Assembly: GCA_002694685.1 (NCBI GenBank)
Contig: NZMW01000010.1
Location: 1-64,000 of the forward strand
Origin: Balneola sp.
GTDB taxonomy: Bacteria; Bacteroidota; Rhodothermia; Balneolales; Balneolaceae
Direction of reading: 5' to 3'
Length of the DNA: 64,000 bases
A program made the position numbers and the translations under genes. Of the stretch, positions 3,772-47,182 are shown in pieces. How positions within the stretch are numbered: the stretch's first letter is position 1; each line of letters begins with the position of its first letter. The notes beneath the pieces are model-generated. The model was not told where the DNA came from and did no database searches. It worked only from the letters and a program-made list of their open reading frames with translations.

Positions 3772-3793
3772 AAGGGTACATAAAAGGGTACAT
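3772..3793 (+). other. Tandem GGGTACAT motifs, candidate integrase arm-type sites
   Basis: AAGGGTACAT occurs twice, starting at 3772 and 3784, 12 bp apart and in the same orientation, 50-60 bp upstream of the tRNA-Arg fragment. Short direct repeats in this position relative to a tRNA 3' end are what tyrosine-integrase arm sites look like. No integrase is present in the window, so the assignment is inference. Confidence 0.35.
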
Positions 3794-3837: not shown

Positions 3838-3888
3838 TATTGACTTCGGATCAGAAGGCTGAGGGTTCGAATCCTTCCGGGCGTACAT
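3838..3888 (+). pseudogene. 3' half of a tRNA-Arg gene (anticodon TCG), attachment-site scar
   Basis: TGA-CTTCGGA-TCA forms an anticodon stem-loop with anticodon TCG. It is followed by a variable region, a T arm (GAGGG TTCGAAT CCTTC) and the 3' acceptor strand CGGGCGTA. No D arm or 5' acceptor strand (expected near GCGCCCG) lies upstream, and the lower anticodon stem is mismatched (A-A), so this cannot be a working tRNA. A displaced 3' fragment is what site-specific integration into a tRNA gene leaves behind. Confidence 0.8.
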
Positions 3889-4000
3889 AGACGTACTAAC
3901 ACCAAGCCGTAAGATATTTACATATAATGTCTTATGGCTTTTGTGTTTTTATGAGTGGACAACATACGGCAAACATTTTCACTTAAATGTGTTCTATTGC
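3874..4000 (+). repeat. 127-bp direct repeat, copy A (tRNA-Arg 3' end plus terminator)
   Basis: This copy matches 12281-12407 over 127 bp without gaps and with five mismatches. It begins in the tRNA T-stem (CTTCCGGGCGTACA). It then holds a hairpin, AAGCCGTAAGA..TCTTATGGCTT followed by TTTTGTGTTTTT (about 3904-3950), that looks like the tRNA's own terminator, and about 50 bp more. The offset between copies is 8407 bp. Confidence 0.95.
3904..3950 (+). terminator. Rho-independent terminator in repeat copy A
   Basis: An 11-bp stem (AAGCCGTAAGA with TCTTATGGCTT, one G-U pair) is closed by an AT-rich loop and followed by TTTTGTGTTTTT. It sits directly downstream of the tRNA-Arg fragment and was probably the tRNA gene's terminator. 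The identical structure is in copy B at 12311-12357. Confidence 0.7.
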
Positions 4001-4232
4001 CTGCTTAGAGGTTTCCGACCTTAATTGTCACGATTACATCACCTACCACAAAAGGCAGTCCTTTAAAATCCGATTTTTTGAATGGGATATTGAAAGAGAA
4101 GAGTACTACTATTTTCCAATGCCTGATACTTTTGCAGGGAAGATTTATGAAGGGAATGCTGAGCTAGCTGATCCACCGAAGGATACCAGTATGATTGTGT
4201 ATGAGCTATTATTTGGTGGGAGGAAGGGATAA
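3987..4232 (+). CDS. Small ORF of 81 aa, possible gene remnant
   Basis: The frame starts inside direct repeat A and continues into unique DNA. Residues 18-78 are compositionally protein-like (FKIRFFEWDIEREEYYYFPMP, then a Pro/Asp-rich stretch). I recognise no family and see no ribosome binding site. It may be the 3' end of a gene whose start was replaced when the repeat was laid down. The rest of the gap up to 4369 shows nothing else. Confidence 0.25.
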   Translation: MCSIACLEVSDLNCHDYITYHKRQSFKIRFFEWDIEREEYYYFPMPDTFAGKIYEGNAELADPPKDTSMIVYELLFGGRKG

Positions 4233-4369
4233 ATAGAAAAGGCAAACCAATTACTAAGTTTCAAATGGAAAGGCTCTATAAGGCTGACATAGTCAATAAA
4301 TCCAACTACAATGACTGCCTTATTTAAAGACATCCAACTACAAATGCTTAGTAAAATTTTAAAATTGAC

Positions 4370-7300
4370 TTATTTTATCAGCATAAACTTCTTTGTGCTC
4401 AAAAACTTTCCTGCCTGAATGCGATAGATATAGACCCCACTGGATAGCCCGGAAGCATCAAAGCTAGCCGTATGCCAGCCAGCACTTTGCTTTCCGTGAA
4501 CCAAAGTGGCTACTTTTTGGCCCAGCATATTAAATATAGCCAACTCCACCTCTCCTGCTTGTGGCAGACCATATCGAATCTGTGTAGTTGGGTTGAAAGG
4601 GTTCGGGTAATTTTGTTGAAGTGTGTATTCCACAGGCGCACCCTCTAGCTCGTTAGATACGGCCAATGCAGTAGTAAAAGAAAACACTTCAGACCAATCG
4701 GATAATCCCCCAGAATTTTCTGCTTGTACTCTCCAGGAATAGGTAAAATCCTCTTTGAGTTCATTCTCTAAAGCTATTGTTGTATCTGGTTCTGATATTG
4801 TTGAGTCTATTAAAACAGGATCAAAACTGTCATTTCCCGATAACTGGAATTTATATGTTTCAGCACGTTTGGAAGGTTTCCATACAAAATTCGGAGTTCT
4901 CTCTATTTCAGTTGATTCATTGGTTGGTTCAAGTAAAACAACTGCTTCTGGAGACTGTTGAATGGTTTTAAAATTCCAAACTTCGGACCAATCACTTCCA
5001 CCTCCGTCATTTATAGCTTTGACTTTCCAGTAATATGTAGAATCATAAGATAGCGCATTTAGTGTAAGCGAAGTGTCAGCTAGGGTAGTGTCAATAATAG
5101 TCGATTCAAAATTGTCACTATTAGATAATTGAACATTATATGATGTAGCTAAATTAGTATCTGACCATCTTAATTTTGCTGATGTAGTTATTAAAGAACT
5201 ATCTGGTTTTGGACTAATTAAATTTACAGGATCAGGTAATTTGACTATATTTATTTGAAGGCTGTCAGTATGTAATTTTATTGAATTTCCTTCTGCATCA
5301 TTAGCGGTTATATCAAAAAGAGAAAAGTTAACTTGCCCTGTTTTGTCACTGATAAATTGTGCTCTGGCAATTTTTCCTGTACCGCTAATACCTTCTCCGT
5401 CTGTTAAGGATATAGCCAAATCAACTGTTTGGCTATCTATCACTGAGTAAAATTCCAACACTTCTCCACTGAAAAAATCACCAATTTGAGCACTTTTGTC
5501 AACGTATTTAGTGAAAGATGAACTGGTATGAAATTTTGCAGACAGACCAAAAAGGTTGGAAACTTCTACTGAGTCATCTATGACTATGTCTACCCAATAA
5601 GGCTGACCCAACGCATATGAATTTTTTGCGGATGAAGGCTTTAAAACTGGAATGCCTGGTTCCTCCTCAGTTTTAAAAGACCACCTCTCACTCCAATCAC
5701 TTTCTCCATAATCATTAATGGCTTTTACCTGCCAATAATAATCTGTTTTGTAACCCAAACTATCTAATGGGACAAAAATATTATCTGCTAATAAGGTGTC
5801 AACGATGAGTTGGTTAAAATCTTCGTCAAGGCTTAATTGAAATCTGTAGTTCTTATCTAAATCACCAGCTTCCCAATCAAATTGAGCATCAACTGCAACA
5901 TCTTGAATATTATTTTGCGGCGATATAAGTGAAACCTCTGAAGGTGGTTGCCTTAGTTCTTCTAGGCCATCCCAAATAGCAAATCTGCTGGCGGGTTTAT
6001 TCCCAGCAATAGTAAACAAACCACCAACAAATAATCTGTTTTCAACAATTTCCATGCTCTGGACATCTAGTGAGCCACCTCGAACACCGCTGCCTAAATT
6101 ACTCCATAAATCAGAATTTACATTATACCGGGCGATATAATTGGCTGGCTTTCCACCTGCATAAGCAAAATAACCACCCACAAAAACATGATCATCAACT
6201 AACTTAATATCCCAGACTTGAGCATCTGCAGTACCTCCTGCGAATGGACCGCCCCCCAAGCCAGAACCCAAAGATGTCCATTTTTCAGTGTCAATATCAT
6301 ATTGGGCAATACTATTTGCTTCTATTCCACCAGCTGCGGAAAATTGTCCTGCCACAAATAGTTTATTCCCAGTACCATCTATTGCAAAAGCATTTCCTGG
6401 TATTCCACTCCCTAAATAAAACTTCTCTTCATTCAATAAGTCGAATCCAAAAATCCCTTGGTCATTGCCAAAATTCCAGCCCCCAAAATAAATTTTACCA
6501 TCCTTCAAATATGAGTCTGTAATACCTAAATTACCTTCATTTGGTATGTTGTAAACTTTATCAATCTGTAGGTTATCCAGATTGTATTCTACAAGTTCTA
6601 AAGAGTTTTGCCAACTATTATTATGAGATGCATAAATTGATGACTCAGTAATTTTTAAATTAATAATAGGTCTATCGCTATAAAGAGATATCTGTTCCCA
6701 TATATTGTTTTTCAGGTCATACATCAAAAACCGTTTCTTATCTATGTCATCTTCTACGGCAACGACTCCTGCAACAAATAATGAGTCACTTATTAATCCC
6801 AATTCAAACACTCTAGGGGGTTCCCAAATATCTGTATTGGTTAGAATAGTATTTAGAGGACCCCAGCTTTCATCATGCAGAGAAAATTTAGCAATTGGGC
6901 CTGTTGCCCCCCCACCAACTGAGGTAAATTCACCACTTACTATCACAAATTGATCATTGGTTACAATATGTTCAATATGACCGTTAAAACCTTTTGCACT
7001 ACTTACTTTTTGCCAGCCACTGTCAAAACGGTAATGCAATAAACCTTTTGCAGGAGGGGTACCAGGAGAATTTAAAGCGTTTGCGACAAATAAATCATTT
7101 TCCGTCGCCACAATATCAAGAACAGAACCCCACCGTGAAACACCTTCTAATCTTGAAAATTCATCTGTTTCTAGATTATAAATACCAACTCTATCGTGAA
7201 ACTCGTAGTCATAAACACCAAAATTTCCCCCAAAGTATAGCATATTATCTGATACAGTCAGCTCCCATATACTATCATCTCCTATAGATGTAGTCCCAAA

Positions 7301-8344
7301 ATCACCCAGTCGAAGTGCCGCCCAAGACTTTTGGATAGGATCGTAAACAGCTATATGATCTGGTTCATCTGAACCTGAAATAGAAAGCTGGTTTCCAGCT
7401 ACAATCAGCTTTCCATTATATTTTTCTAGAGATACAACATTACCAGTAATATTTTCAGAAATTGCATTCCATTCTTTTTCTACAAGTGAATATTGAGCGA
7501 GTTTTTCAGCCCCTGATTCTCCGGCATTAATAAAATTTCCTCCCACATATAGAGTGTCATTTATAACCTCTGAATCCCATATAACACCATATCCTCCTTC
7601 TAAACCATTACCTAAAGTTGACCAAGTTTCTTGTTCTAAGTCATAAATCACAATATTACTTGCTGAAATAATAGAGTCATCAGTTTGTATTTCGGTGAAT
7701 TGTCCACCAATAATTAGTTGATTATTCCAAGTGTCAATGCTACGAACTATACCAACAGGATACCCTTTCAGAGGAAACCACTCAGATTTATTAAAATCAT
7801 AATATGCAATACTTGTTGCGTTCTTTTCACCAGCTCTATCAAAAGACCCAGCTACATATAATTTTTCGTTATAAATAAGCATGTCATCGATAGAACCATA
7901 GTTACCATTAGTTCTCCATATTCCTTCTCCTAATGCTTCCCATGTTTTGTCAGTTTTATTGAATCGGACTATGGAGTTAGCTTCTATGGTATCAGCATAA
8001 AAGAAACTACCTCCTACATAAATGTCATCACCGTAAGCCTCCAATGCCCTAACATTACCATCCACACCTGGAGCATAACTTTCGCTAATCCAATGTTCAT
8101 CACCAGATGCACTGAAGGGATGTTGAATATTTTTAGTTAGAAAATTTGCGTTATTTGCAGAGCTTTTTTTCTCGGTTATGCATTTTTTAGGTAAAATAAT
8201 GTCAGGTTTCTTTTCTGAAAGTTCCTTCAAAAACTCACACTCCGATATATCCTGATCTGGGAATACCATTTCCTGACCAAATAGAGGAATATTAATTGCT
8301 AAGAGTAGAACAAATTGTAGACCTAAAAGCTTATTTACGAACAT
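4370..8344 (-). CDS. Secreted beta-propeller / Fn3 / cohesin-like protein with T9SS sorting domain
   Basis: The protein is 1324 aa with a signal peptide (about 1-23). Residues 90-790 carry repeated blades of the pattern LYVGGxFxxAGxxxANxIAxYDxxxxxWxxLGxG, a Kelch/galactose-oxidase-like propeller. Three Fn3-like domains follow (about 795-885, 1020-1115, 1118-1210; each has [20 protein letters not shown] strands). A cohesin-like domain (about 895-1010) lies between the first and second. The tail (1239-1324) is a type A T9SS sorting domain starting [11 protein letters not shown] and ending in KKFMLIK. It should be exported and attached to the cell surface or released. It is the last gene of the operon, 13 bp after the protease. 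The ligand is unknown. Confidence 0.85.
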
Positions 8345-8357
8345 AATGATCTGTGTT

Positions 8358-11300
8358 TTACTTTATTAAAGTCAGCTTTTTGACTTTGGAGAAATTGGTG
8401 GTTTCAATTTTGTAGAGATAGACACCACTGGAAAGAGAGTTGGCGTCAAAACGAATGCTGTGTACACCCGCTGATTTTTGTTCATTAACAAGTGTTTTTA
8501 CTTTTTGGCCCGCTATAGTGTAAATAGTAAGGGATACATGGCCGGGCTTTTCAAGGGAGTACTCAATGGTAGTTGACGGATTAAAAGGATTCGGATAATT
8601 ATCTGCCAAATGGTTCTTTAGCGGGAGCTCATTTTCTGCCGAAGTGGTTATGCTACCGCTGCCAACCACATAATTAATTTCAACGGATTCCATCAATCTG
8701 TCATCTGAAGTAATAATTTGGTCAAACGTTAAGTTCACAGTTTCATCATGTTTCCAAGTATGATTGAGAATTAATGTGCCTAAACGTGTATTCTCAACAT
8801 GCACAGGCTGCTTCTTATTTGTGAATGCAATATCCAACATGCTTTCATCCTCATGATCATAATCAAACACAATCAAATCATCTCCTAAAAAACTGTTAGA
8901 CACATCCAACTCATAACTTTGCAATTTCTCTTTGTTTTCTATGATTACATCAAAAGCAAGCCCTTGTAATGGCTCATCTGAATTCCATTGTAGATCCAAT
9001 TGTAATTCCCCTTCTTTTGGTTGATCATCAGAGATCTCGACCTTGAAGTATTTTAGCACTTCATTAAGGGTAGGATCGTTACCCGTAAACTGCTCATTAT
9101 TTTGTTGGTGTGTTTGAGAATAATTCAACCCAATAACTAAAACATCTGCGGCATTTATTTTCCCGTCGCCATTAGTATCAGCAAAAATTCTTTTGGGAGT
9201 CTCTCCATCCAAGTCCCATGGTACTCTTTGGTGAATTTCCCAAGCACTGCCGGGGTTATTATTCTCGCCATTTTCCTGACCGTAGTAAAGCCCGATTGGT
9301 AAAACGTCAGAAGCATCTACGTATGCATCATTATTTGCGTCTCCGGGCCATACATCAACTAGGATCGAATCATCCCAATAAACCTGAACAGGTCCGGCAG
9401 GGTGAGACTCACCATCATTATAAGATGCAACAACCGTATAGTTGTAGACTCCAGTATCAGGTAAAGCTTCGGTAAAGTATTTTTTGGTTGTAGTTTCTAA
9501 AAGCTCATCGCTTCTAAATACTTGATAGTGGTTAAATCGCTGTTCTTCAGCGGCATCTAAGAAGGTATGGTCCCAGTTGAGTTCGACTTGCCCTGAATAT
9601 TGATTTAATTGTGCTGTTAAGTTAGAGGGTTTGCTCCGGGCTTCTTGTTGCTCAATACTACCACCGGTAACTATCAATGAAAAGGCTTGTATATCATTTT
9701 CTAACATACCCTTATGAGAAATATGTAGGGTGTACAGACTATCTTTATCTGTTTCATTAATGTAAATGACCTCTACATTATCCCTATAATTATCGCCGGT
9801 ACCTGCATTAGCTGATGGAGTTGAAGGATCAAGGATGTAAGGGGCAAATTCCTGTTCCTTTTTATAAGAGATCCTCATATCTAAGTCATTAACAAGTACC
9901 ATTTTGGTAGTGTCGGGGTTATCATAGTTATATGGCCCCGGAACATCTGTCCATGCTATGGTCGCTTTAAGTGGTTCTTCTCCAGAGGCTTTGACCTGAT
10001 AAGCAAGCTCCTGTCCTTCATTAAGAATCAGTTCATTCACGGATGCAAAACCATTTTGTGCAGTGTCTCGCGAGATAATTTCAGCGGATTTTTTAGTATT
10101 CATCAATCCCCAGCCATATCGGTAATCCGGTCCTGGTGCACCATTTATAGTGTCATCTGCAGCATGAATAACTAAAGCTTTCATAGTTGAAGACCAAAGA
10201 GTCTGATCAGATCCGGAGACGTTCTTGTAGTGCTCATTTAGTAGACCAATAGAGCCACTAACCATTGGGCCAGCCATAGAAGTGCCATTAAAAGAGGCAT
10301 AGCTATCATCTGATGACGAGACTGCAGAATAAACGTCTACGCCCTTTGCAACTACGTCAGGTTTAATCCTCCCGTCATGGGTAGGCCCCCAGCCGCTAAA
10401 TGTTGCCATATTTGCAGCGGCATCAACCGCACCTACCGTGAGTATATTTTTTGCTGTGCTAACTCGTCCTAAACTTTTAAAGCCATTTTGCCCACCATCT
10501 AATTCTCGAATTTTATCCGAAGCGACCCAATCACCATCTTTTCTTACATAATGTGTTACGGGTTGGTTTTCCGGGCCTTCTCCACGATCATTCCCAGCAG
10601 ATTTAACCATCAAATAATGAGGGGCATTAAAAGCAATGCCATCCCATTGATTTGCCCAATGATCGTAATGACCAAAAAAGAAATCCCTTTTTTCATTCAT
10701 GCTTTCATCGCCAAACCAGTGCCAACCCTCGTAACCACTGTAATTTCCCCAAGACCAACCTACTATATTCCCATAAGAGTGTTGAGAAACTGTAAGCCCT
10801 TCTGCTGCAGCCTCTGCCATTTCTGAATTATCATCGTTCCAATCGTAAGCATTAAGGTTTGCTTTGTAAGACATTCCCTTTGCATTAGCATCAACTCCTT
10901 CTGCAATCATGGTTCCAGCTACATGAGTTGCATGTTCACTAATAGTAGTGGCACCATCACCTTGAATTATTCTGTCGCCAAATTCTTGATGAGTAGTTCT
11001 AACAGCTCCTCCATCCCAGATACCAAGTGTTTCTCCTTGTCCAGATAGATTAAAACCTGCGGTACCACTTTCCCACAGTTCTGATGATTTTATTAAGTCT
11101 GCACCCTCTAAATTATAGGTGGTTAGGTAGATGGGTATTCCATTTTCGATTCGTTGTAACTCAACTACTCTGCCATTTTGTAGCGTACTTCTGATTAAGT
11201 ATCCTTTTGCATTAGCTATTTCGATAGCTGCTAATTTTTTTTGCTGAGACTCAATGCGTTGCTGAGATGCAATTTTATTTAACTCAGATTTCTGTAAGAC

Positions 11301-11426
11301 TACCTGGCCGTATAGATTAATCGTACCTACAAATAGAAAACATATTAAGACCGATATAAATAATGAAGCTTTGAGCTTTAATTGTTTCATGGGATCTATA
11401 GTCCTTTTCATATTTGTACCCTGCAT
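8358..11426 (-). CDS. Secreted subtilisin-like (S8) serine protease with dockerin-like repeats and T9SS sorting domain
   Basis: In the 1022-aa reading the catalytic triad is visible: Asp138 (GIWDGGAV), His165 (HATHVAGT) and Ser383 (NGTSMAGP), with oxyanion Asn279 (SAGND). [14 protein letters not shown] beta domain and an Fn3-like domain follow. Then come two dockerin-type calcium-loop repeats ([17 protein letters not shown] and [17 protein letters not shown], about 695-765), a cohesin-like beta domain and a C-terminal sorting domain ([11 protein letters not shown]). The true start is probably the Met at residue 13, directly before the signal peptide. The next gene follows after 13 bp. It lies in the repeat-bounded segment and its substrate is unknown. 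Confidence 0.9.
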
Positions 11427-11434
11427 GAAATTAG

Positions 11435-12010
11435 TTAGTTTCTCAATGACCGAATCCAGACAATCAACTGAGTCACCTTTTGATCTTTTTCTTCTACCAG
11501 AGTGTCTAATGAGAAATTCATTTGCTCAGTAGTTTTGAAGTCTAAATTTCTTAGAGTAATAGAAGTTGAAGGACCAATAAATTCTGTTTTAGAGACCATT
11601 CTTTGTTTAATCTCTGCCAATTCTTGTCCTAAATCATCACTTTGTATAAGGTCATCTAGTATTTTTTTCTGCTCCCGGCTTAAGCTATAATTCCTAACAC
11701 TATCTGCTTCGGTTTTCAAGGGTCTTACACTTTTAGCAATAAGTTGCTTGTATTGCACTTCTCCGGATTTGGTAAAAATAAATTCAAAGCCAACATTATC
11801 TCCTATTGAATACATATCCATGCCTCCAATTTCTTGGTATTGAAGAAGAATTTCATTTGGAGAGGAGTCAGTCTGTTTTTGCAAATTTGTACAGGAATAA
11901 ACCGAAAGCCCCCCGAAAAAGAATACAACCCCTATAAAAGTTCTAAAAATCATCAATAAATTGGTTTTAAAAATGCCCCCCGATAATAAAACGTGATTTA
12001 TTTTAAACAT
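11435..12010 (-). CDS. Putative lipoprotein, first gene of the protease operon
   Basis: The reading is 191 aa, but the Met at residue 20 is the better start because it begins a signal sequence (MIFRTFIGVVFF) that ends in a lipobox-like VYSC. The mature part is a small alpha/beta domain with no family I recognise; it contains the phrases GFEFIFTKSGEVQYKQL and LSREQKKILDDLI. The stop is 8 bp before the protease start, so they are very likely co-transcribed. A chaperone, inhibitor or anchor for the protease would fit the position, but nothing in the sequence proves it. Confidence 0.6.
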   Translation of the reverse strand: MFKINHVLLSGGIFKTNLLMIFRTFIGVVFFFGGLSVYSCTNLQKQTDSSPNEILLQYQEIGGMDMYSIGDNVGFEFIFTKSGEVQYKQLIAKSVRPLKTEADSVRNYSLSREQKKILDDLIQSDDLGQELAEIKQRMVSKTEFIGPSTSITLRNLDFKTTEQMNFSLDTLVEEKDQKVTQLIVWIRSLRN

Positions 12011-12450
12011 TTCACGTTAATAGAGCAAAAACAATTAATTCATGATTATTACAGACAATATCATTCTAACCCAGACCATAATTGCAACTGCTATAATCTC
12101 AGCTTCGCGTATTACAAGAGAGTAAATAATTATATGTAAAGATTGTATTCTATCTTAAGTATGTATCTGGCAAACAAATCTTTCATTTACCTTCGGTTTA
12201 CTCATTTAAAGAAAAAGTGAAATCTACTTTTCATGGTATTCAGGTGCCTTTAAGCGTATTTGAAGGAAGAATATTCATTTCTTCCGGGCGTACATAGACG
12301 TACCAACGCCAAGCCGTAAGATATTTACATATAATGTCTTATGGCTTTTGTGTTTTTAAGAGTGGGCAACATACGACAAACATTTTCACTTAAATGTGTT
12401 CTATTGCTTCTAGAGCGTTTAGTCATCATTCAGCACACCAGTTTTGACAA
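12011..12450. other. Intergenic region right of the operon, holding direct repeat B
   Basis: This AT-rich gap should contain the minus-strand promoter of the protease operon (near 12011-12200). Its right part is repeat copy B (12281-12407). I see no gene: the plus-strand frame 12341-12607 lies in the repeat, a terminator and the antisense of the pump gene. Confidence 0.6.
12281..12407 (+). repeat. 127-bp direct repeat, copy B (tRNA-Arg 3' end plus terminator)
   Basis: Ungapped partner of 3874-4000 with five substitutions. Only the last 14 bases of the tRNA (CTTCCGGGCGTACA) are retained here, whereas copy A keeps the tRNA from the anticodon arm onward. The terminator hairpin at 12311-12357 is preserved. 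Confidence 0.95.
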
Positions 12451-12519: not shown

Positions 12520-15500
12520 TTACTCTGTCTCAAACTGTGCCAACAAGGCTGGGATAACGACCATGTTCAATAGGGTAGAACTCAAGAGTCCACCTAAAAT
12601 CACCTGAGCCATTGGAGACTGTATCTCATTCCCCGGCTCACCGGCGGCTAAAGCCAGTGGGATAAGTGCCAGCCCTGCAGTAAGTGCAGTCATCAGGATG
12701 GGATTAAGTCGTTCCATAGCTCCCTGCCGGATGGCTTGCAGGAATTCCTTCCCTTCTTTTCTGAGCTGTTGGTAATGAGAGACCATCAGGATTCCATTTC
12801 GGGTGGCAATACCAAACAGAGTGATAAAACCGACCAGTGAGGCAATGGAAATGATTCCGCTGGTAAACAGCACGGTGTAGATCCCACCAATTAAAGCAAA
12901 AGGGAGGTTTACCATTACTAACAGAGCCGTTTTGAGAGAACCGAATTCCAGGTACAATAACAGATAAATCGCCGCGATAGCAATAATACTAAGCAACGAA
13001 ATCGTTCGGGTAGCCTGAGCTTCACTTTCAAACTGACCACCATATTCCACAAAATAGCTTTGTGGGAAGCTGACGTTCTGAGCTACATTGGCACGGATCT
13101 CATCCACGGTGCCACGCAGATCTCTACCCGCGACATTCGCGGAGACCACGATCTTACGCTGCACATTTTCCCGGCTGATGGTGTTAGGGCCACTTCGGGA
13201 TGTCACCGAAGCCAATTCTGCCAGTGGTACAATGGTTCCGTCTTCCAGGTTAAAAGTGGCTTTTTGGACCGACTCAATACTGCCCCGGTGATCTTCATCG
13301 AAGCGAACCAGCAGGTCGAACATCTTGTCGCCTTCCAGTATCTGCGAGACCACTTCACCGGCAAAAGCCACATCCACCATCTCAGCAAGTTGTTGAATGG
13401 TAATTCCGTAGCGAGCCAGCGCTCTTCGGTCCGGTCGGATTTGGATCTGCGGAACATTTTGTTGCTGCTCTACCGACAGATCAACCACACCTTCTACCGT
13501 TTCCATTTGTCCGCGCACTTCTTCAGCCATAGCCCGAAGCCTGAACAGATCCGTACCAAAGATCTTCACGGCGATGTTCGCTCGGGTCCCGGAAAGCATA
13601 TGATCAATTCGGTGCCCGATGGGCTGACCAATAGTGATGTTGGTTCCTGAAACCACACTCAGGTCTTCCCGAATCTCAGCCAGCACTTGTTCTTTGGTCG
13701 TTCCTTCCGGGATATCCAGTTCCGCATCTATCTCCGAAGCATTCACGCCCTGAGCATGCTCATCCAGCTCGGCCCGACCGGTACGTCGAGAGGTCGATTC
13801 AATTGCCGGATGATCCAGCAGTATCTCCTCAATTCGTTTACCGATAGCATTGGATTCGGTCAGCGAAGTTCCCGGAATCGTAACCGCGCTGATCACCAAC
13901 GTCCCTTCATTGAATTCAGGCAAGAAAGATCTTCCCAGAAATGGCAACACCACCAATGTTCCAAGAAACAGCACTAATGTTCCAACCAAAACGGTCTTCT
14001 TGATGCGTAGGACTACGTTCAAGACATGTTCATAGCCTGATTTTAACTTCTTGGTAAACCAGCTTTCTTCCAGTTTTCCTTTGGAGGCCTGACTGGGAAG
14101 CAAATAGTAGCACATGGCCGGTGTAACCGTCATGGCAATCACTAATGATGCTCCGATCGAAATGATGTAGGCAAGCCCCAGAGGCTGCAGCATACGACCT
14201 TCGATTCCGCTTAGGAAAAATAGCGGAATGAAAACAATCATAATGATCAGTGTGGCATTGATGATGGAAGACCGGATTTCCTTTGAGCCTTCAAATACTA
14301 CATCAATGTCCGATTTCTGCTTGGTTTCCGGAAGTTTTGAGTTTTCCCTGAGCCGCCTGAATACATTCTCCACGTCAATTATGGCATCATCCACGATCAC
14401 CCCAATGGCAATAGCCATCCCCCCCAAGGTCATCGTGTTGATGGTGATATCAAAGAATTCCAGTACGAAGATCGAGAAGATCAGCGCTAACGGAATGGCG
14501 GTTAGCGAGATCAGGGTCGTTCGGAAATTCCCCAGAAACAGGAACAAGATCACGATCACCAAAAAGGCTCCATCCCGCAGGGCTTCGATGACGTTGTCGA
14601 TAGCCAGTTCAATAAACTCGGCCTGTCTAAACAGGTGTGTGTTGATCTCAAATCCGTCTGGGAGGCTGGACTCAATCTGCGCCAGCGTTTCATCTACGCG
14701 GGATGTTAGTTCCAATGTATTAGCACCCGGCTGTTTTTGAATAGAAATAATCACGGCCGGTTCGGCATTCACCGAGGCATCCCCGATCTTTTGAGCAGCT
14801 GCGATCTCGACATTAGCCACATCTCCTATCGTGATTGGAATATTATTTCGCTGGGTGATCACGGACTGCTCCAGATCTTCTACCGAGTACGCCCGCCCTA
14901 TTCCACGAATGGTGTACTCCTGACTGTATTCTCTGAAGAAACCGCCGGAGAAGTTTTCATTAGACTGCTCAGTAGCCTGTAAAACCTGATTCAGGGTGAT
15001 ATTGTACTGCTTCAGCTTATCAGGACTAACCCGTACCTGATATTGTTTCTGGCCACCTCCAATGGGAATAACTTGGGCGACTCCAGGGATAGCCAAAAGC
15101 CTTCTTCTGATTTCCCAGTCGGCGGCTGTTCGCACTTCCAGCTCAGAGTGCTCATCGCTGTTCACACTCACCAGCATGATCTCTCCCATGATGGATGAGA
15201 TCGGCGCCATAATGGGCGGCGGGACTTCTTCGGGCAGGCCGGTCGCTACCAGCTGTAATTTTTCATTCACAATTTGCCGAGCCCTGAAAATATCGGTGCC
15301 CCAGTCGAATTCAACCCATACAATGGATATGCCTTTTGAAGTGGATGAGCGAACCCGTCGCACTCCCGTCGCTCCATTTACGGAGGTCTCGACCGGAATG
15401 GTTACCAGCCGTTCTACCTCTTCAGGTGCCATCCCATGCGCCTCGGTCATTACCGTTACGGTGGGAGCCGTGAGATCGGGGAACACATCCACAGGCATAC

Positions 15501-15597
15501 GGTCCACTATATAAATTCCGGCTGCCAGTATGACCACCGAACTCACCAACACGACCAGCCGGTACCTTAACGATCCTCTGATTATTGCATCTAACAT
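12520..15597 (-). CDS. Heavy-metal efflux RND pump (CusA/CzcA family)
   Basis: The 1025-aa inner-membrane pump has the usual RND layout: a first membrane helix (residues 12-31), a periplasmic porter domain, a helix bundle around 335-530, a second porter domain and a second bundle to the end. The transmembrane helix-4 signature reads AIGVIVDDAIIDVENVFRRLRE. That identifies the heavy-metal RND class but matches neither the DFG..DGA..VEN of CzcA nor the A.GA..DAA..EN of CusA, so the metal cannot be named. It would use the proton gradient to drive metal out through the adaptor and channel coded just upstream. It is the last gene of a five-gene His-rich operon, 22 bp after the adaptor. Confidence 0.92.
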   Translation of the reverse strand: MLDAIIRGSLRYRLVVLVSSVVILAAGIYIVDRMPVDVFPDLTAPTVTVMTEAHGMAPEEVERLVTIPVETSVNGATGVRRVRSSTSKGISIVWVEFDWGTDIFRARQIVNEKLQLVATGLPEEVPPPIMAPISSIMGEIMLVSVNSDEHSELEVRTAADWEIRRRLLAIPGVAQVIPIGGGQKQYQVRVSPDKLKQYNITLNQVLQATEQSNENFSGGFFREYSQEYTIRGIGRAYSVEDLEQSVITQRNNIPITIGDVANVEIAAAQKIGDASVNAEPAVIISIQKQPGANTLELTSRVDETLAQIESSLPDGFEINTHLFRQAEFIELAIDNVIEALRDGAFLVIVILFLFLGNFRTTLISLTAIPLALIFSIFVLEFFDITINTMTLGGMAIAIGVIVDDAIIDVENVFRRLRENSKLPETKQKSDIDVVFEGSKEIRSSIINATLIIMIVFIPLFFLSGIEGRMLQPLGLAYIISIGASLVIAMTVTPAMCYYLLPSQASKGKLEESWFTKKLKSGYEHVLNVVLRIKKTVLVGTLVLFLGTLVVLPFLGRSFLPEFNEGTLVISAVTIPGTSLTESNAIGKRIEEILLDHPAIESTSRRTGRAELDEHAQGVNASEIDAELDIPEGTTKEQVLAEIREDLSVVSGTNITIGQPIGHRIDHMLSGTRANIAVKIFGTDLFRLRAMAEEVRGQMETVEGVVDLSVEQQQNVPQIQIRPDRRALARYGITIQQLAEMVDVAFAGEVVSQILEGDKMFDLLVRFDEDHRGSIESVQKATFNLEDGTIVPLAELASVTSRSGPNTISRENVQRKIVVSANVAGRDLRGTVDEIRANVAQNVSFPQSYFVEYGGQFESEAQATRTISLLSIIAIAAIYLLLYLEFGSLKTALLVMVNLPFALIGGIYTVLFTSGIISIASLVGFITLFGIATRNGILMVSHYQQLRKEGKEFLQAIRQGAMERLNPILMTALTAGLALIPLALAAGEPGNEIQSPMAQVILGGLLSSTLLNMVVIPALLAQFETE

Positions 15598-15619
15598 AAT
15601 TTATTTCCTTTCCTGATGA

Positions 15620-17269
15620 TTAATGAGAGTGTCCGTGCGAAGGTGCTTCAGATGACAAAGAAGCTAATTTTACCTGGTACGCATTGGTTGTAACCACATG
15701 CTCGCCTTCTTCCAGGCCGGAAGTCACTTCCACCCAGCCGCGGTTTCTAATGCCCGTGGTTATCGCTCTTTTTTCGAAGGATTCTCCGGCCACATGTACA
15801 TACACCACAAAATTACCTTCCTCTTCAATAAGGGCTGATTCTGGAATCGCGATCACGTTTTCTTTTTGATCGGTGTCGATCTCTGCGGTCACAAAGAGTC
15901 CGCTGTGCAAACCTTCTGGATTATCAATTTCATAGATCAGCGAAAGTGTTCGTGTTTCAGGATCTACCTGTTTTCCGGCACTCAGCAAGCGTCCGTTCAC
16001 CTCGTTCATTCCGTACATTCTCTCATTACCCTGCACGTAAAAAACAGCCGCGCCGGGATTTTGAATGGCTATTCGCTTAGCTGCGGGAACGTGAACACTC
16101 AACCACATTTTGCTCATATCGACGATTTTTAAGAGAGGCTCTCCGGCTTTCACCTGCTTTCCGGGTTGCACATAGGATTCCACTACGGTTCCGGATATCG
16201 GTGCTTTCATTTCAAAGCGATAAGAGGATTCTGAGTCGCCATAAGTATCTACCGTTGCAGTATCAATTTGAGCGATCTCGTTGATTGTCTGAAATTGCGT
16301 GAGCGCCTGACGGTATTCGATTCGTGCTCTTTCCAGTTCCACTTCTGGGATCGCTTCTTTCTCATATAATCGCTTTGACCGTTCCAGGTTCTTTTTGGCC
16401 AAAGACAATTGTGATTGTGCATTGATAAACTGCTGAGCATAGTTTTCTCCATCTGCAGATTGGATAGAAGGGTTCAGCTGCACCAATGATGTACCTTTTC
16501 GCACGTTCTGACCTTCAACTGGAAGGTTTTCATTGGCACTACTCAGGATGATCCCAGAAAAGGGCGCCGAGACAACCACTTCTCTGCTTTGAACCGGTTT
16601 GAGCTCCCCGTGTGCGTCCACCGTTTCAGAAAGTGTATGTCGACTTACTTTCTGCGTAGCAAAAGGGATCTTCCACTGCTGCTCTTTCAAAAAGGAAATC
16701 AGATTTGGGTCTTCTTCCTCGTGAGTAGCCGGAACGTCTCCTGCGGATGCATAAACAGGAATACCATTTACCTGTAGGGTATCATCTACCATTCCCTGGA
16801 TGATAATAGTTAAGTCATATCGTCCTGCTCGCTCAAAAATAACATCCGGTCCGTAGATGCCCGGAATTTGCACTTCCGTTTCGGTTAGGGAACCTTCGTT
16901 ACCCCGCTCAGAACTAAACACAAACTGTACTTCTGATTCAGAAATAGGCTGGAAATCTGAAAGCCGGGTCAGGTGAACGGCGAAGGTGGCTTCCTGACCT
17001 ACAATAAGTTCAGGATATTCCATGAACAGTTCGGTTTTATTGGTCCATTGGGTAATTACCCCGGCTCCTTCCAACTGGGCATCTTCCGCATGACTATGGG
17101 CATCTTCTCCATCATGGGAATGGCTATCATCTTCCGGTTCTTGCTGGGCAGTTTGCTCGTGGGTATGGTCACCATCTTCACCATGACTGTGGCTTTCATC
17201 ACCGCTTCCGCCGCACCCCATCATCGCCAGAGAGGTACCTAAAATTATGGTTAGTATAAGCTGTTTCAT
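15620..17269 (-). CDS. His-rich membrane-fusion adaptor of the metal-efflux pump (CusB/CzcB-like lipoprotein)
   Basis: The 549-aa protein starts with a lipoprotein signal (lipobox LAMMGC). A segment of about 50 residues full of His and Asp/Glu (HSHGEDGDHTHE, HSHDGEDAHSHAED) follows, and is likely to bind metal in the periplasm. An Ig-like domain comes next, then the adaptor core: a beta-barrel/lipoyl start (VDAHGELKPVQSREVVVSAPFSG), a coiled-coil hairpin (about 285-345), the lipoyl return (MKAPISGTVVESYVQPGKQVKAGEPL) and a membrane-proximal domain (GLEEGEHVVTTNAYQVK). It ends in HGHSH. It links the RND pump to the TolC-like channel. Confidence 0.92.
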   Translation of the reverse strand: MKQLILTIILGTSLAMMGCGGSGDESHSHGEDGDHTHEQTAQQEPEDDSHSHDGEDAHSHAEDAQLEGAGVITQWTNKTELFMEYPELIVGQEATFAVHLTRLSDFQPISESEVQFVFSSERGNEGSLTETEVQIPGIYGPDVIFERAGRYDLTIIIQGMVDDTLQVNGIPVYASAGDVPATHEEEDPNLISFLKEQQWKIPFATQKVSRHTLSETVDAHGELKPVQSREVVVSAPFSGIILSSANENLPVEGQNVRKGTSLVQLNPSIQSADGENYAQQFINAQSQLSLAKKNLERSKRLYEKEAIPEVELERARIEYRQALTQFQTINEIAQIDTATVDTYGDSESSYRFEMKAPISGTVVESYVQPGKQVKAGEPLLKIVDMSKMWLSVHVPAAKRIAIQNPGAAVFYVQGNERMYGMNEVNGRLLSAGKQVDPETRTLSLIYEIDNPEGLHSGLFVTAEIDTDQKENVIAIPESALIEEEGNFVVYVHVAGESFEKRAITTGIRNRGWVEVTSGLEEGEHVVTTNAYQVKLASLSSEAPSHGHSH

Positions 17270-17310
17270 TGCTTTAAAATTTATTCGTGATAAGTGGTTT
17301 GTTCATGGAA

Positions 17311-17607
17311 TTAGTGACTGTGCTCTTCATCCCCGTGAGAATGGGTATCCTCTTCATGAGTATGATCCCCATCTTCCCCATGGCTATGGTCTCCTTCTTC
17401 ATCGTGGGCATGAGTTGAGTCCTCTTCTGTTGCTTGGTCACCGCCTCCTATTCGAACGGCATCACTATCACCGGAGGTGGATGATTGAGCCGGAGTTTCA
17501 TGGGTGTGATCGCCGTCTTCTCCATGGCTATGCGTTTCTTTTTCTGAGCCGCATCCGGCGATGATAAATGCAAGACTTACAAATAGTGCTGTGAATAGAT
17601 TTTTCAT
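17311..17607 (-). CDS. Small His-rich lipoprotein, probable periplasmic metal binder
   Basis: The 98-aa product has a lipoprotein signal (lipobox FIIAGC) and a tail with repeated HSHGEDGDHTHE-type blocks at residues 25-37 and 74-98. Its first 40 residues parallel the N-terminus of the adjacent adaptor, so it looks like a free copy of that segment. Its ATG overlaps the stop of the TolC-like gene (ATGA), so translation is probably coupled. Metal binding is inferred from composition; the protein has no other domain. Confidence 0.8.
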   Translation of the reverse strand: MKNLFTALFVSLAFIIAGCGSEKETHSHGEDGDHTHETPAQSSTSGDSDAVRIGGGDQATEEDSTHAHDEEGDHSHGEDGDHTHEEDTHSHGDEEHSH

Positions 17608-18857
17608 GGTTCTGAAGTTTTTTGAGTTGATAATATTTTTCCTGAAGTGATGGTATCGAGTGTAAATAGGGCTTGCTGGTAATCAGCTGTGATGCGATGC
17701 TGAAGACTACGACCATCGACGTAAGCCTTGGTGGCATCCAGCAGTTCGATCAGCGAATAACGTCCTTCCTGATAAGCTGACCGTGATGTTTCCAACATTT
17801 CCGCAGAAAGTGGATTTTGTTGCATCTCTTGCCACTGCGCATACAAATTTTGAACACGATGGTAAGCTACATCCACCTGATTACGAATGGTTCGCCTTTG
17901 GAGCTGCATCGATGTTTCCACGCTTCGATGTTTGGCTTCTGCCATGGTGATGCTTCCACTGTTTCGGTTGAAAATGGGCAGCTGTATGCCCCCGCCAATT
18001 ACAAAACCTTCCGAGCCGTCCGACTGATTTTTATATCCGAAATTCACCTTTAAGTCCGGCAGGCGTTCTCGTTTTTCGACTTTGTAATTTAATCCAGCAG
18101 CTTCTGCTTCCAGCTCCATGGCTTCAAGATCAGCGCGGTGGGTCAAGGCATAGTCTTGAAGCGTTTCTGAATCTTCCATGATCGGCTCAACCGGTAAATC
18201 AGCTTCTACCTGAAATTTAAAACCGGTTTCTTCGGATGAAGTGATCATGGCCGCCAATTGGTTGCCAGCCTGCATCATTTCCAGTTCTACATTATTTCGC
18301 TCTCGCAGGTACCGGTTCTTTTCAACGGTAAAACGCTGCACCTGAAGTCCCGATTCCGTGCCTTCCGTTTGGCGTGCTTTAGATGATGCCAACACATGAT
18401 TAATAACCGCAAGTGCCTGTTCGTACACTTCCAGTTTATGCTGTAAATACCAGTATCCAGCATACAGCGATTTTACCTGCTGAATGAGCACTGAGCGATC
18501 ATACTCATAGCTTAATTCTGCAGCCTCACTACTTTTGGTCGCGCTTTTATTTCGAAGGAAGGGTTGCCCCAGCAGTTCAATCGGCTGCGAAATCTGATAG
18601 GTCGTTTCATCATAATCGAGCGTGCCGGCATTGAGCTGCTCGCTGAAGATGCTCACCTCGGGATTCATGTACGATTTATACTGTTGAGCCGCTCCCTGTT
18701 TTCGAAGCTTATCAAGCTCTGCCAGCTCTTGCTGGAGGCTGTATTGTTTAAATCGCTCAACAACGTCCTCTAAGGAAAGAGTCTGAGTTTGGGCGTGAAC
18801 CTGAAACGGTATCCACAGGAATACCAAGAACAAGATCCACCACTTGGATGAATTCAT
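17604..18857 (-). CDS. TolC-family outer-membrane channel of the metal-efflux system (CusC/CzcC-like)
   Basis: The 417-aa protein has a signal peptide ending near VHAQ and two helical-hairpin repeats typical of the outer membrane efflux family. Marks are SLEDVVERFKQYSLQQELAELDKLRKQGAAQQY in the first repeat and YQEGRYSLIELLDATKAYVDGR in the second. Conserved Asn-Pro-Glu (YMNPEVSIFSEQ) and GGGIQLPIFNRNSG strands are present. It would form the exit duct for the pump. It overlaps the small His-rich lipoprotein by 4 bp and follows the 146-aa His-rich gene by 75 bp. Confidence 0.9.
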   Translation of the reverse strand: MNSSKWWILFLVFLWIPFQVHAQTQTLSLEDVVERFKQYSLQQELAELDKLRKQGAAQQYKSYMNPEVSIFSEQLNAGTLDYDETTYQISQPIELLGQPFLRNKSATKSSEAAELSYEYDRSVLIQQVKSLYAGYWYLQHKLEVYEQALAVINHVLASSKARQTEGTESGLQVQRFTVEKNRYLRERNNVELEMMQAGNQLAAMITSSEETGFKFQVEADLPVEPIMEDSETLQDYALTHRADLEAMELEAEAAGLNYKVEKRERLPDLKVNFGYKNQSDGSEGFVIGGGIQLPIFNRNSGSITMAEAKHRSVETSMQLQRRTIRNQVDVAYHRVQNLYAQWQEMQQNPLSAEMLETSRSAYQEGRYSLIELLDATKAYVDGRSLQHRITADYQQALFTLDTITSGKILSTQKTSEP

Positions 18858-18932
18858 AAATAGGATGTATTAATGGTTATTGAATGCTATTGAGATAGCG
18901 GATTAGAGATGCTATCTGGCAAAGGGATAGAT

Positions 18933-19373
18933 TTATCCCAGGGGTGGGCCGCGAAGAGAGTAAGAAGAAAATGGGGTGGATTGGTTAAGATGATCCGGCG
19001 GAGGCAGATCTAAATAAAGCAGGACCGGAGATTGTAAAGTTCTTTGGCTGCTTAAAACATCAGGGGCAGAAAAAGGGTCCGGATTAGTGTCAGCCTTACT
19101 TGTAGTCTTTTGAGTTAGTGTTCCCGTTAGGTCAACGCTAGCCGTTGGATGCTGGTGGGCATCCTTATCATCAAACTCTTCCGCGTGACTATGATTTTGT
19201 GTCTGATCTTCCGAATGGGTGTGCACAAAGGCATGGACATCACCGTGTTCAAACATATGATCAAATATAGCATGTACATGGACGCCATTTCCAAAAAATA
19301 CGCACAACACGCTGGCTACTATCAGTAGCCTGGCCGTTTGTTTGAACACTATTTTTCGGGTTAACTCAATCAT
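18933..19373 (-). CDS. His-rich secreted or membrane-anchored protein leading the metal-efflux operon
   Basis: The 146-aa product has a hydrophobic segment (residues 15-33, LLIVASVLCVFFGNGVHVHA). A His/Asp cluster (HMFEHGDVHAFVHTHSED, NHSHAEEFDDKDAHQHP) and a Ser/Thr-rich linker follow. The C-terminus is short and proline-rich, ending SLRGPPLG. Proteins of this pattern are often found at the head of metal-efflux operons in the Bacteroidota; their biochemical role is not established. Metal sensing or buffering is an inference from composition and position. Confidence 0.7.
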   Translation of the reverse strand: MIELTRKIVFKQTARLLIVASVLCVFFGNGVHVHAIFDHMFEHGDVHAFVHTHSEDQTQNHSHAEEFDDKDAHQHPTASVDLTGTLTQKTTSKADTNPDPFSAPDVLSSQRTLQSPVLLYLDLPPPDHLNQSTPFSSYSLRGPPLG

Positions 19374-19403
19374 TGGTTTAAAATAGGTGCTGACAGGCTA
19401 AAA

Positions 19404-19441
19404 CCAAAAGCCTTTATAACAGATGATTTGCATGGCTTTTT
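19404..19441 (-). terminator. Possible terminator after the PrsW-like gene
   Basis: AAAAGCC pairs with GGCTTTT across a 21-bp loop, and on the minus strand it is followed by GGTTTTA. It lies between the PrsW-like stop (19451) and the His-rich gene start. The long loop makes it a moderate candidate. Confidence 0.4.
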
Positions 19442-26919: not shown

Positions 26920-29331
26920 CTATTCCCCACCAAAGTTATAGCGGAAGTTCAGACGAAAAGCCCTGCTTGACCAGCTATATTGACTGTTTCTATAGTAGTT
27001 GGGCTCAATAATTTCCCTGTCACTGTTTCTGGAATTGAAAAGGTCGCGAACGTTTATGGATACATTAGCCTTGCCATCTAGCAACTCTTTTGATAATCCA
27101 GTTCCAACGAATGATCGCCCTGCTCTACGACCCTGAGTGGTGTTCTGAGCTCCCCTGAAAGAAATGTAGGACTGAAAATTCCAACTATCCAAGAACTGCC
27201 ATCTGACTCGAATCCGACTGCTAAAAGTCTCTGTTTCACTGGTGTATAAAACGCCCTGAAACTGCCCTTCACGATTCGACTGATATATATTCAGGCTTCC
27301 GGAAAGCTGAAGTCCGTCAAACAGTTCCTGGTCTGCAGAAAATTCAACGCCCCAAGCGTCTTCAGAAGCAAGATTAATCGGTTGTTCAATATTTACGGAC
27401 TGACCTCCGATAATCTCCGTCGTTTCTATATCCTCAATAACCTGCGTTCGGTACCTGTAGTATAGGCTTGTAAGAACCGAGCCTGTTTCCCAATATCTTA
27501 GGTACCCAAGTTCAAAGGAGTTCCCAAATTCCGGCTTTAGATCTGGGTTACCAATTTCGCGGTTTCTTTCATTTTCGATTTCGGTAAATGGCAGCAGCTG
27601 TCCTGACCATGGGCGAGATATGCGCCGGCTGTAACTTGCCTGCAAAGAATTCAGCTCGTTAATGGTGTAAGACAAGAATACACTCGGGAAAAAGTCGGTA
27701 TAGGACTGTGAACTTGTGGTTCCCGATTGATCCAATTCGGACTCAATATTGGTGTTTTCAGCTCTTATGCCCAACTGATAGGTAAATGGCTTCAGCTCGC
27801 CGTTAAAGATTGCGTAGGCAGCATTTACATTCTCTAGGTAGATGAAATTATCCGCGGCGCCTATGTTTTCGGGAGTGCGCACCCAGTTTCCATTTTGAAA
27901 TTCCTCCACGGTATAATCATTATCCTGCCAGTCGTAGTTGAACCGTAGACCAGCCTCCATTTTTGCCGATTCTCCAAGCGGTTGTTCATAATCAATGTCC
28001 AAGCGTGCTTCCCGATAAATTTCACCCGCATTTGTGCGCTGCCTGACTTCATTCCCTGTTCCTTGTTCTACAAACTGTTCAAAGTTCGTTCTGCCATCTT
28101 CTTCACCAAACTCATAGTCAAAATCGGCTACCAGCTTATGGTCATTGTTTTCCTTGAATGTTTTCTCATATTGGGCACGTACATCAAAATCACTTTCTCT
28201 TTGCTCTTCCAACACATCCCGAGTAGTCCGCTGAACAACACCCCAGTTGTCAAATACATCTCGATAGACCTCATCATTTGTAGGATCATAATCCGTATAG
28301 TTTAGATTCCTGTCCTCAGTTTGGTCTTCGAGGTTTATTCGGGTTGATAGAGTTAACAACTGATCAGCGGGTAAATAGATGTCTGCACCAAAGTTGATGT
28401 TCGCCTCTTTTTCGGTCTCGTCAGTATCTATCAATTCTTGATACGCATATGTGGTATCTCCACTAAAGCTTTGAAACGTACTGCCTGATTCAGGCTCACT
28501 TTCGTATTCAACCTGAGTATTTAAGAACCAGTTTACCTTGCTACGCTGATAATTAAGGTTGGCTCCTAACCCATAATCCTGTGGATATCCTGCATTACCT
28601 CTCACACTACCGTTGAAACCCAACTCTGCGTCATCAACCAAAATAATATCGATAATTCCCCCGGTACCATCGGCAGAATAGCGAGCTGATGGATTGGTAA
28701 TAATTTTAACTTCTTCAATCATACTCGAAGGAATGCTGCTAAGCGCGTCCGTTCCATTTCTTACCAAATTAGAAGGTCTGCCATTGATCAAAATTTGAAC
28801 ACCCTGATTTCCCCTCAAGCTTACGTTTCCCTCAAAGTCTGTGGTAATAGAGGGGACATTATCCAAGACATCTAGAGCAGAACCTCCAAGGCTGGTTACA
28901 TCATCCTGAACGTTGAAACTTCGGCTATCAAAATTCATTTCCATATAAGAACGCTGACCTTCAACAACGACTTCATCAAGCTCACTTTGCTCGGCTGCCA
29001 ACTCTATTGTTCCTAAATCAAGAGGCTGGCCGGGTTCAACTTCAATTTCAGACTTATAGCTATTGTAAGCCAGAAAGGAAACTTCAATTACATACTGTCC
29101 GGGTTCCATTTCTACAGTGAAATTTCCATCTGGATTACTGACAACTCCCGTTAAAATATTTTCTTCAGCCTCATCATATATAGCCACTGAAGCATTTGCG
29201 AGAACCTCTCCCTCTGTATCCTGAACCATTCCCGTAATTGGAACCTTTTCAGTAGTGCTCTGTCCAAAAGCGGTTGTACTTCCTGATAAAAAAAGGATGG
29301 CGATTAACGCTTTATAAATAATATTTTTCAT
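26920..29331 (-). CDS. TonB-dependent receptor-like outer-membrane protein
   Basis: The 803-aa protein has a signal peptide (ending near TAFGQ) and a carboxypeptidase-regulatory-like domain (about 30-115, GMVQDTEGEVLANASVAIYD). A plug domain follows (about 130-235: LDVLDNVPSITTDFEGNVSLRGNQGVQILINGRPS). The rest is a beta-barrel of the outer membrane beta-barrel family (ISRPWSGQLLPFTEIENERNREIGNPDLKPE), ending in RLNFRYNFGGE. No SusD-like partner is adjacent, so a glycan-uptake role is not supported. A two-component system lies directly upstream on the same strand. Confidence 0.88.
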   Translation of the reverse strand: MKNIIYKALIAILFLSGSTTAFGQSTTEKVPITGMVQDTEGEVLANASVAIYDEAEENILTGVVSNPDGNFTVEMEPGQYVIEVSFLAYNSYKSEIEVEPGQPLDLGTIELAAEQSELDEVVVEGQRSYMEMNFDSRSFNVQDDVTSLGGSALDVLDNVPSITTDFEGNVSLRGNQGVQILINGRPSNLVRNGTDALSSIPSSMIEEVKIITNPSARYSADGTGGIIDIILVDDAELGFNGSVRGNAGYPQDYGLGANLNYQRSKVNWFLNTQVEYESEPESGSTFQSFSGDTTYAYQELIDTDETEKEANINFGADIYLPADQLLTLSTRINLEDQTEDRNLNYTDYDPTNDEVYRDVFDNWGVVQRTTRDVLEEQRESDFDVRAQYEKTFKENNDHKLVADFDYEFGEEDGRTNFEQFVEQGTGNEVRQRTNAGEIYREARLDIDYEQPLGESAKMEAGLRFNYDWQDNDYTVEEFQNGNWVRTPENIGAADNFIYLENVNAAYAIFNGELKPFTYQLGIRAENTNIESELDQSGTTSSQSYTDFFPSVFLSYTINELNSLQASYSRRISRPWSGQLLPFTEIENERNREIGNPDLKPEFGNSFELGYLRYWETGSVLTSLYYRYRTQVIEDIETTEIIGGQSVNIEQPINLASEDAWGVEFSADQELFDGLQLSGSLNIYQSNREGQFQGVLYTSETETFSSRIRVRWQFLDSWNFQSYISFRGAQNTTQGRRAGRSFVGTGLSKELLDGKANVSINVRDLFNSRNSDREIIEPNYYRNSQYSWSSRAFRLNFRYNFGGE

Positions 29332-46699: not shown

Positions 46700-47172
46700 A
46701 CAGGAAAGCCGGGTAATCGCTTAGTACTTTATTGTGCTGGGAGGAAAGTCCGGACACCAACAAGTACCGCGCTCCCCGATTCGGTTCAGCTGGCGAAGGG
46801 GAGGCTTCCTGAAAGGAATTTCAGGATGACAGACAGTGCAACAGAAAACAGACAGCCTCCAGCGCGGAGCGCAAGAAATTCCAAGTTACAAATCCCAATG
46901 ACCAAATCTGAAATTGAGCTTTGGGATTTAAGTTTTGGTGCTTAGAGTTTCTAACGCTCCGCGTTGGCGGTGATGGTGAAAAGGTGAGGTAAGAGCTCAC
47001 CGCCCCGTGTCGTGAGGCCGGGGGCAGTGCAAACCTCGCGGGGTGCAAGTTCATGCAGATGGTATACGCCTCTTGTCGTGACGCCATCGGGTGGAATGCG
47101 CCAGATAAATGATTACCTCCCGCTCATAAATTATGTGAGGGAACAGAATCCGGCTTACAGGCTTTCCTGTTG
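46700..47172 (+). ncRNA. rnpB: RNase P RNA, bacterial type A, with an enlarged hairpin
   Basis: P1 is closed by ACAGGAAAGCC (46700-46710) with GGCTTTCCTGT (47160-47170). Conserved blocks are present: GAGGAAAGTCCGGAC, GGTAAGAGCTCACCGC, AGATAAATGATTACC and AGAATCCGGCTTACAG. It is the catalytic RNA that trims tRNA 5' leaders. At about 473 nt it is longer than the usual 350-400. The excess is a hairpin at 46863-46963, at the position of the variable P12 helix. A terminator follows at 47183. Confidence 0.95.
46863..46963 (+). repeat. Palindromic insertion in the P12 helix of RNase P RNA
   Basis: CGCGGAGCG (46863-46871) pairs with CGCTCCGCG (46955-46963). Inside, AAATCCCAA and TTGGGATTT form a second stem. 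The inner sequence has the look of small dispersed palindromic elements rich in CCAAAT/ATTTGG words. Whether other copies exist in the genome cannot be told from this window. Confidence 0.6.
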
Positions 47173-47182
47173 ATTTTACATG

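Follow-up and report, generated by a model that had tools for sequence, protein, structure and literature searches.

A probable integrase-less, CIME-type unit with conserved ends in a tandem array behind tRNA-Arg(TCG) of a Balneolaceae genome

The 8.4-kb segment at 3874-12293 of the window (the whole stretch of 64,000 nucleotides analysed here, from Balneola sp.) is, with a probability of roughly 0.8, an integrase-less, non-autonomous unit of the CIME type, lying in a tandem array behind tRNA-Arg(TCG) and bounded by ends of the family carried by elements that encode the tyrosine integrase INT2. The host genome (G000; other genomes are cited by similar handles) falls in the genus of Gracilimonas mengyeensis, and the window is the first 64 kb of its contig C10, starting at the contig edge. 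CIMEs are defined as having lost the genes for integration and transfer while keeping attL and attR, and as accreting in tandem with other elements (PMC5704250). The segment keeps a left end at 3874-4018, a right end at 12149-12293 and a 13-nt core, and carries no recombinase gene of its own; on those two criteria it is classed as working like a CIME. The sites that delimit it and open its neighbour are the following.

3874..3886, + strand: att core of the 8.4-kb unit, CTTCCGGGCGTAC, 13 nt of tRNA-Arg
3874..4018, + strand: left end of the 8.4-kb unit, made of the core, a hairpin (about 3904-3941) and the arm GGACAACATACGGCAAACATTTTCACTTAAATG (profile and alignment)
12149..12293, + strand: right end of the 8.4-kb unit, with the core (12281-12293) as its last 13 nt (profile)
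12281..12422, + strand: core and left end of the next tandem unit (second repeat copy; hairpin about 12311-12348)

The most conspicuous trace of this arrangement is a single family of 127-nt direct repeats. The repeat search places its copies at 3874-4000 and 12281-12407, 96% identical at a spacing of 8407, and an ungapped alignment gives exactly five mismatches, in full agreement with the first-pass annotation of this DNA. Exact 20-mer repeats appeared in 0 of 200 Markov simulations of 10.5 kb, so that a repeat of 127 nt lies far beyond chance. As that annotation also claimed, the start of each copy falls in the tRNA-Arg(TCG) T-arm/acceptor 3′ strand, and a terminator-like hairpin, followed by a T-rich stretch, lies within each copy; the pairing of the hairpin is mostly kept across relatives, with a few compensated changes. 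On the tRNA side the left copy goes further than annotated, 46 nt of the tRNA 3′ end (3841-3886) matching there versus 13 nt at the right. An assembly or duplication artefact might be invoked on the ground that the window begins at a contig edge, but the flanks of the two copies differ and equivalent joints occur in other species, which leaves it a negligible chance.

Each repeat copy appears, from profile and alignment, to be a composite left end, in which the 13-nt tRNA-Arg core is followed by the terminator and a conserved arm, and thus to extend beyond a simple att core. The left-end consensus consists of the core CTTCCGGGCGTAC, the terminator and typically GGCCAACATAYGGCAAACATTTTCACTTAAATGC; the segment at 3874-4018 matches this profile with an E-value of about 2e-42, a figure to be read with the fact that the profile was built partly from the same sequence. 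The paired pattern of the left arm has matches in 10 of 92 genomes, in eight of which the match falls at such a left end, against three matches for the reversed control, and the left arms of the window's own genome depart slightly from it.

The earlier reading of the element boundary overlooked a distinctive right end. At or near tRNA-Arg fragments in other genomes of the genus lies DNA resembling both the repeat and its inner right flank, with different DNA in between. The consensus of this right end reads CCGGCAAACAAATCTTTCATTTACC, next CACTTAAA, and last GCTTT ahead of the core, and the copy at 12149-12293 is the sole strong match to the profile in its own genome (E 4.9e-31). A search of 129 genomes of the order with a sequence-only model, at a cut-off of E<=1e-4, found right ends in 14, distributed over five genera and confined to the same bacterial family; right ends also recur in genomes left out of the building of the first model. 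Some (in G004, G067 and G006) lack the core. Behind tRNA-Arg(TCG) of G054 (L241), an arm resembling the left end and one resembling the right end are separated by only about 100 bp, and may represent a collapsed unit without cargo. The exact right- and left-end motifs have zero matches in 2.9 million viral contigs, and hence no phage carrier was found.

It had been proposed that the repeats are the footprint of site-specific integration at a tRNA gene. Integration at tRNA-Arg(TCG) stands, while the right copy turns out to belong to the next unit instead of being a plain att copy. Were the whole 127-bp repeat an att core at tRNA-Arg, with both copies belonging to a single element, direct repeats from a tRNA 3′ end would bracket foreign cargo just as they do here. 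Nevertheless, right ends share just 13 nt with the tRNA, and many units have the remaining ~114 nt of the repeat as their left end. In G041, a genome of another genus, a CusA unit begins with such a left end and has a different neighbour in front of it; a single element is accordingly very unlikely. The preferred reading, in which two units abut, draws on joints of the form right end, core, left end (R-core-L), which exist in the window's own genome, G004 and G041. Because the G041 joint precedes the same type of pump, the best interpretation makes the right repeat copy the left end of a CusA unit in its own right. The features downstream of the joint are these.

12520..19430, - strand: next unit, with a CusA/CzcA-type RND pump, an adaptor, a TolC-like protein (by eye) and a small ORF
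26920..29331, - strand: TonB-dependent-receptor-like gene (by eye), chromosomal backbone, which resumes right after the array in G009

The CusA unit is co-linear with G005 up to 19430 and, inverted, with G001; its own right end is not recognisable in the window. The last core in G009 lies about 107 nt from the match of the TonB-dependent-receptor-like gene. Further along the window are a 536-aa ORF composed mostly of ~10-residue repeats of the type ASPxFSRLM (23660-25270, - strand), beside a sigma-factor-like ORF, and the gene for a bacterial class A RNase P RNA (46701-47173, + strand).

Between its ends, the 8.4-kb unit holds a gene relic and three cargo genes.

4021..4232, + strand: 5′-truncated relic of a small gene that adjoins INT2 in autonomous relatives (DNA and protein identity)
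4370..8344, - strand: secreted beta-propeller/FN3 protein, 1324 aa, with a T9SS sorting tail (Pfam/NCBIfam)
8358..11426, - strand: S8 subtilase, 1022 aa, with a T9SS sorting tail (Pfam/NCBIfam)
11435..12010, - strand: predicted lipoprotein, 191 aa, without a family match

This bears out the earlier description of a three-gene set for secreted proteins (the predicted lipoprotein, the subtilase and the beta-propeller/FN3 protein, the latter two with T9SS tails) without a recognisable integrase: by ORF list and domain scan, none of the ORFs of 3987-12010 encodes one. Within the genus the subtilase lacks close relatives, its best match being 52% identical, over the N-terminal part only, in another genus.

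The candidate recombinase for these ends is INT2, a tyrosine integrase with Arm-DNA-bind_5, Phage_int_SAM_5 and Phage_integrase domains (arm-binding, SAM-like and catalytic, respectively). Its neighbours in G002 (Gracilimonas mengyeensis DSM 21985) encode an HTH/excisionase-like protein and a Prim-Pol/D5 primase-helicase. Close orthologues occur in only four of 92 genomes (G002, G006, G029 and G034), at 82, 52 and 42% identity to the G002 query, with the wider family falling to 37%; each of the four belongs to an element that has such ends and sits at a tRNA-Arg gene, a co-occurrence with a hypergeometric probability of 3.6e-4 when relatedness is ignored. In G029, tRNA-Arg(ACG) is immediately followed by a left end, the right end lies 35 kb further along with the 414-aa INT2 in between, and the core of this right end, CTCTCAGGCGTAC, matches tRNA-Arg(ACG) and not tRNA-Arg(TCG). 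In G006 the core is missing from the right end nearest INT2, and the right end of G034 is weak. The window's own genome has no INT2 orthologue, the best match being 35%. Two other integrases were considered as the recombinase and set aside: that of G009 sits in an element with other arm-like repeats (GGTATAACA), and that of G004 in an element without a matching right end.

The loss of the integrase gene can be approached through the relic at 4021-4232. A small gene adjoins INT2 in G002, and a homologue adjoins INT2 in G034. The window unit contains this gene minus its first codons, directly inside the left end, with 88% DNA identity over 196 nt and 77% protein identity to G002, and 60% protein identity to G034. 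At the matching place, AraC units of G009 and G041 retain a 50-54-nt relic of the start of the small gene (E 1e-8 and 1e-13). G006 carries AbiE cargo between INT2 and the right end, and the same AbiE stretch, 2.8 kb at 88% identity, directly follows a left end in G041. Such instances point to deletions between left end and cargo as the probable route by which INT2 was removed. Because a truncated relic of the INT2-adjoining gene starts it, the 8.4-kb unit is best read as an internal-deletion derivative, and the relic supports its likely descent from an INT2 element.

Similar integrase-less units populate other genomes. Between left and right ends, G001 carries the toxin-antitoxin genes AbiEi/AbiEii (2.1 kb), G009 an AraC gene with a metallo-hydrolase (2.2 kb), G004 a hydrolase/lipoprotein set (4.6 kb, the right end without core) and G078 an efflux set (6.7 kb). 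In G041, AbiE, AraC and 11-kb units follow one another and close in the R-core-L joint before CusA. Units are shared between genera. The AbiE genes of G041 are 85-90% identical in DNA to those of G001 and G006, compared with 66-67% for queA, and a transfer of AbiE between genera is supported by this comparison. Transfer of the AraC/hydrolase unit between genera is more weakly supported, at 79% versus 68% for queA. The CusA unit stands at 85-88% within the genus, where queA is at 71-74%, and at 73% against G041, only slightly above queA at 66-68%. A literature search for comparable elements in Gracilimonas or Balneolaceae returned nothing relevant.

Conceivably, homologous recombination between repeated ends, and not a site-specific recombinase, is the main route by which the units spread and are shuffled. 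Left ends within one genome are more alike than left ends from different genomes: identity is 96% between the two of the window's own genome, and G001 has left ends that are alike over their shared part, with inverted or truncated units in G001 and G005. Such an account is nonetheless unlikely given that the precise tRNA cores change with the target tRNA, that the R/L orientation is fixed in intact units and that elements with an integrase carry the same ends. Under site-specific integration, which is preferred, homologous recombination between the ends may still contribute to the shuffling, given the close likeness of the left ends in the window's own genome and the inverted or truncated state of some units elsewhere.

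Upstream of the 8.4-kb unit lies the edge of a different island, marked by two features.

3774..3793, + strand: GGGTACA direct-repeat pair (3774/3786), arm-type sites at the right edge of the neighbouring island
3841..3886, + strand: 46-nt 3′ fragment of tRNA-Arg(TCG), attR of the neighbouring island (100% identity to tRNA-region positions 30-75)

No tRNA gene is present in the window. An intact tRNA-Arg(TCG) followed by the same terminator had been expected to the left; the gene exists, on contig C11 (G000:C11:163000-163073, 11.4 kb short of the C11 end), and the terminator behind it is that of the intervening island. A matching GGGTACA pair at G000:C11:163193/163205 stands near the left edge of this island, which continues on C11 after the tRNA with the tyrosine integrase INT1 (L051:5247-6407), small ORFs, a D5-type helicase and a DUF6371 protein, and further on with PIN, patatin, E2-ThiF-JAB and metallo-beta-lactamase-fold genes. 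The defence-type genes of L051 (G000:C11:168500-174490) encode a PIN protein, a patatin, a Prok-E2_A/ThiF/JAB fusion and a metallo-beta-lactamase-fold protein; a short type I restriction C-terminal piece also occurs in L051, and no CD-NTase was seen beside the defence-type genes. The first 3.8 kb of the window are in the same style, with a TIR-STAND-WD40 gene and a SLATT protein. The former (1-2958, - strand) is cut by the contig edge within similar WD40 repeats, and these may have broken the assembly there. Read most simply, these sequences form a single defence island that spans 15 kb or more, its attL lying at the tRNA and its attR at 3841-3886 of the window. Since one contig carries the intact tRNA and another the window, the C11-C10 join is an inferred one; no overlap between the two contig ends was found. 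The long tRNA fragment is thus attR of another island with its own integrase and GGGTACA repeats, a point absent from the first-pass annotation. An own integrase is a criterion of an autonomous tRNA island: this island encodes INT1, and the 8.4-kb unit encodes none. INT1 is not the first choice as recombinase of that unit either, since the core of its island is 46 nt long and the arms are GGGTACA, features that the unit does not share. Elsewhere, extra short tRNA-Arg-like 3′ ends, GGGTTCGAATCCTTCCGGGCGTAC behind a GAAGC...GCTTC hairpin, occur in G060 (L232), where they lie in tandem after the tRNA, and in L140 near 580. Three more tRNA-Arg 3′ fragments follow the intact tRNA in G008 (G008:C23:62013-137387, L091-L094), the mark of several islands of another type stacked at one tRNA.

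In the proposed mechanism, INT2 from an autonomous relative would bind GGCMAACA-type arm repeats in the left and right ends and excise a circle with an attP of the configuration R-core-L. Insertion of the circle would follow, the target being the 13-nt tRNA-Arg core or a core already in place, and units would stack as tRNA-core-L-cargo-R-core-L-cargo-R, each left end supplying a terminator for the tRNA ahead. A deletion from the left end to the gene beside INT2 would have removed INT2 together with the replication genes, the relic 4021-4232 representing the junction, and units devoid of INT2 could move along with a neighbour or when INT2 is supplied. What is shown comprises the ends, the core, the order of units in tandem, the relic, the occurrence of these ends on INT2 elements and the sharing of units between genera; catalysis, arm binding and excision by INT2, and mobilisation in cis or in trans, we infer. 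An empty site joining 3874 directly to 12281 had been predicted; it matches the expected excision product and is absent from every genome searched. That neither an empty site nor an excised circle was seen counts against the favoured explanation, as do the lack of an INT2 orthologue in the window's own genome and the right ends without a core. Nor is the tRNA joined straight to the TonB-receptor backbone in any of the ~30 best-matching tRNA-Arg(TCG) loci of relatives.

P4-like phage satellites and tycheposons combine a tRNA-targeting tyrosine integrase with a D5-type primase-helicase and a variable cargo zone. The INT2 elements share all three, whereas the window unit is without these genes. 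Closest in organisation to the latter are the CIMEs of Streptococcus thermophilus related to ICESt1, which likewise keep attL and attR, have lost the integrase, contain a relic of the deletion in their parent and form a tandem, at a tRNA gene, with an element that does bear an integrase. The 8.4-kb unit differs in belonging to another phylum, in having equivalents over several genera in varied combinations, and in a parent that encodes a Prim-Pol/D5 primase, an excisionase-like protein and INT2. The ssrA locus of Dehalococcoides, where multiple tandem islands bounded by the 3′ repeat of one RNA gene follow that gene and 15 islands without an integration module are proposed CIMEs (PMC3146451), is a close precedent for tandem arrays in which integration modules are present or lacking. 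Those islands use the serine recombinases DsiB/DsiA at tmRNA, in contrast to a tyrosine integrase at tRNA-Arg, and the units described here have conserved ends of ~130-150 nt with a terminator in each left end.

Integron gene cassettes are cargo modules stacked behind an anchor site and common to different genomes. The present units resemble them in both respects, but are multi-kb and multigene with two long ends, and INT2 has an arm-binding domain. The likeness raises the option that an INT2 from elsewhere captures and expels units singly, in a manner integron-like in function, with the tRNA as the anchor. At least four distinct cargoes have equivalent ends with no integrase inside, in combinations that vary by genus, as this would predict; cis mobilisation by accretion, however, gives the same pattern, and each unit keeps two long ends, so that capture in trans is distinctly doubtful. 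Similarly doubtful is a broader proposal, that this bacterial family might possess a tRNA-anchored cassette system. A tyrosine integrase acting in trans, and present on just a minority of elements, would capture and stack integrase-less multigene units with standard ends and pass them from genus to genus, and each unit would bring a terminator by which the tRNA transcript is re-ended.

On the CIME-type reading, a repeat pair that lacked an explanation leads to a defined family of mobile units in a little-studied bacterial family, one for which the ends are named, a candidate integrase is at hand and parent elements can be identified. It offers a testable case for the movement of islands that lack integrases, and so bears on many orphan genomic islands. 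Behind the same ends travel genes for metal efflux, toxin-antitoxin systems and secreted enzymes.
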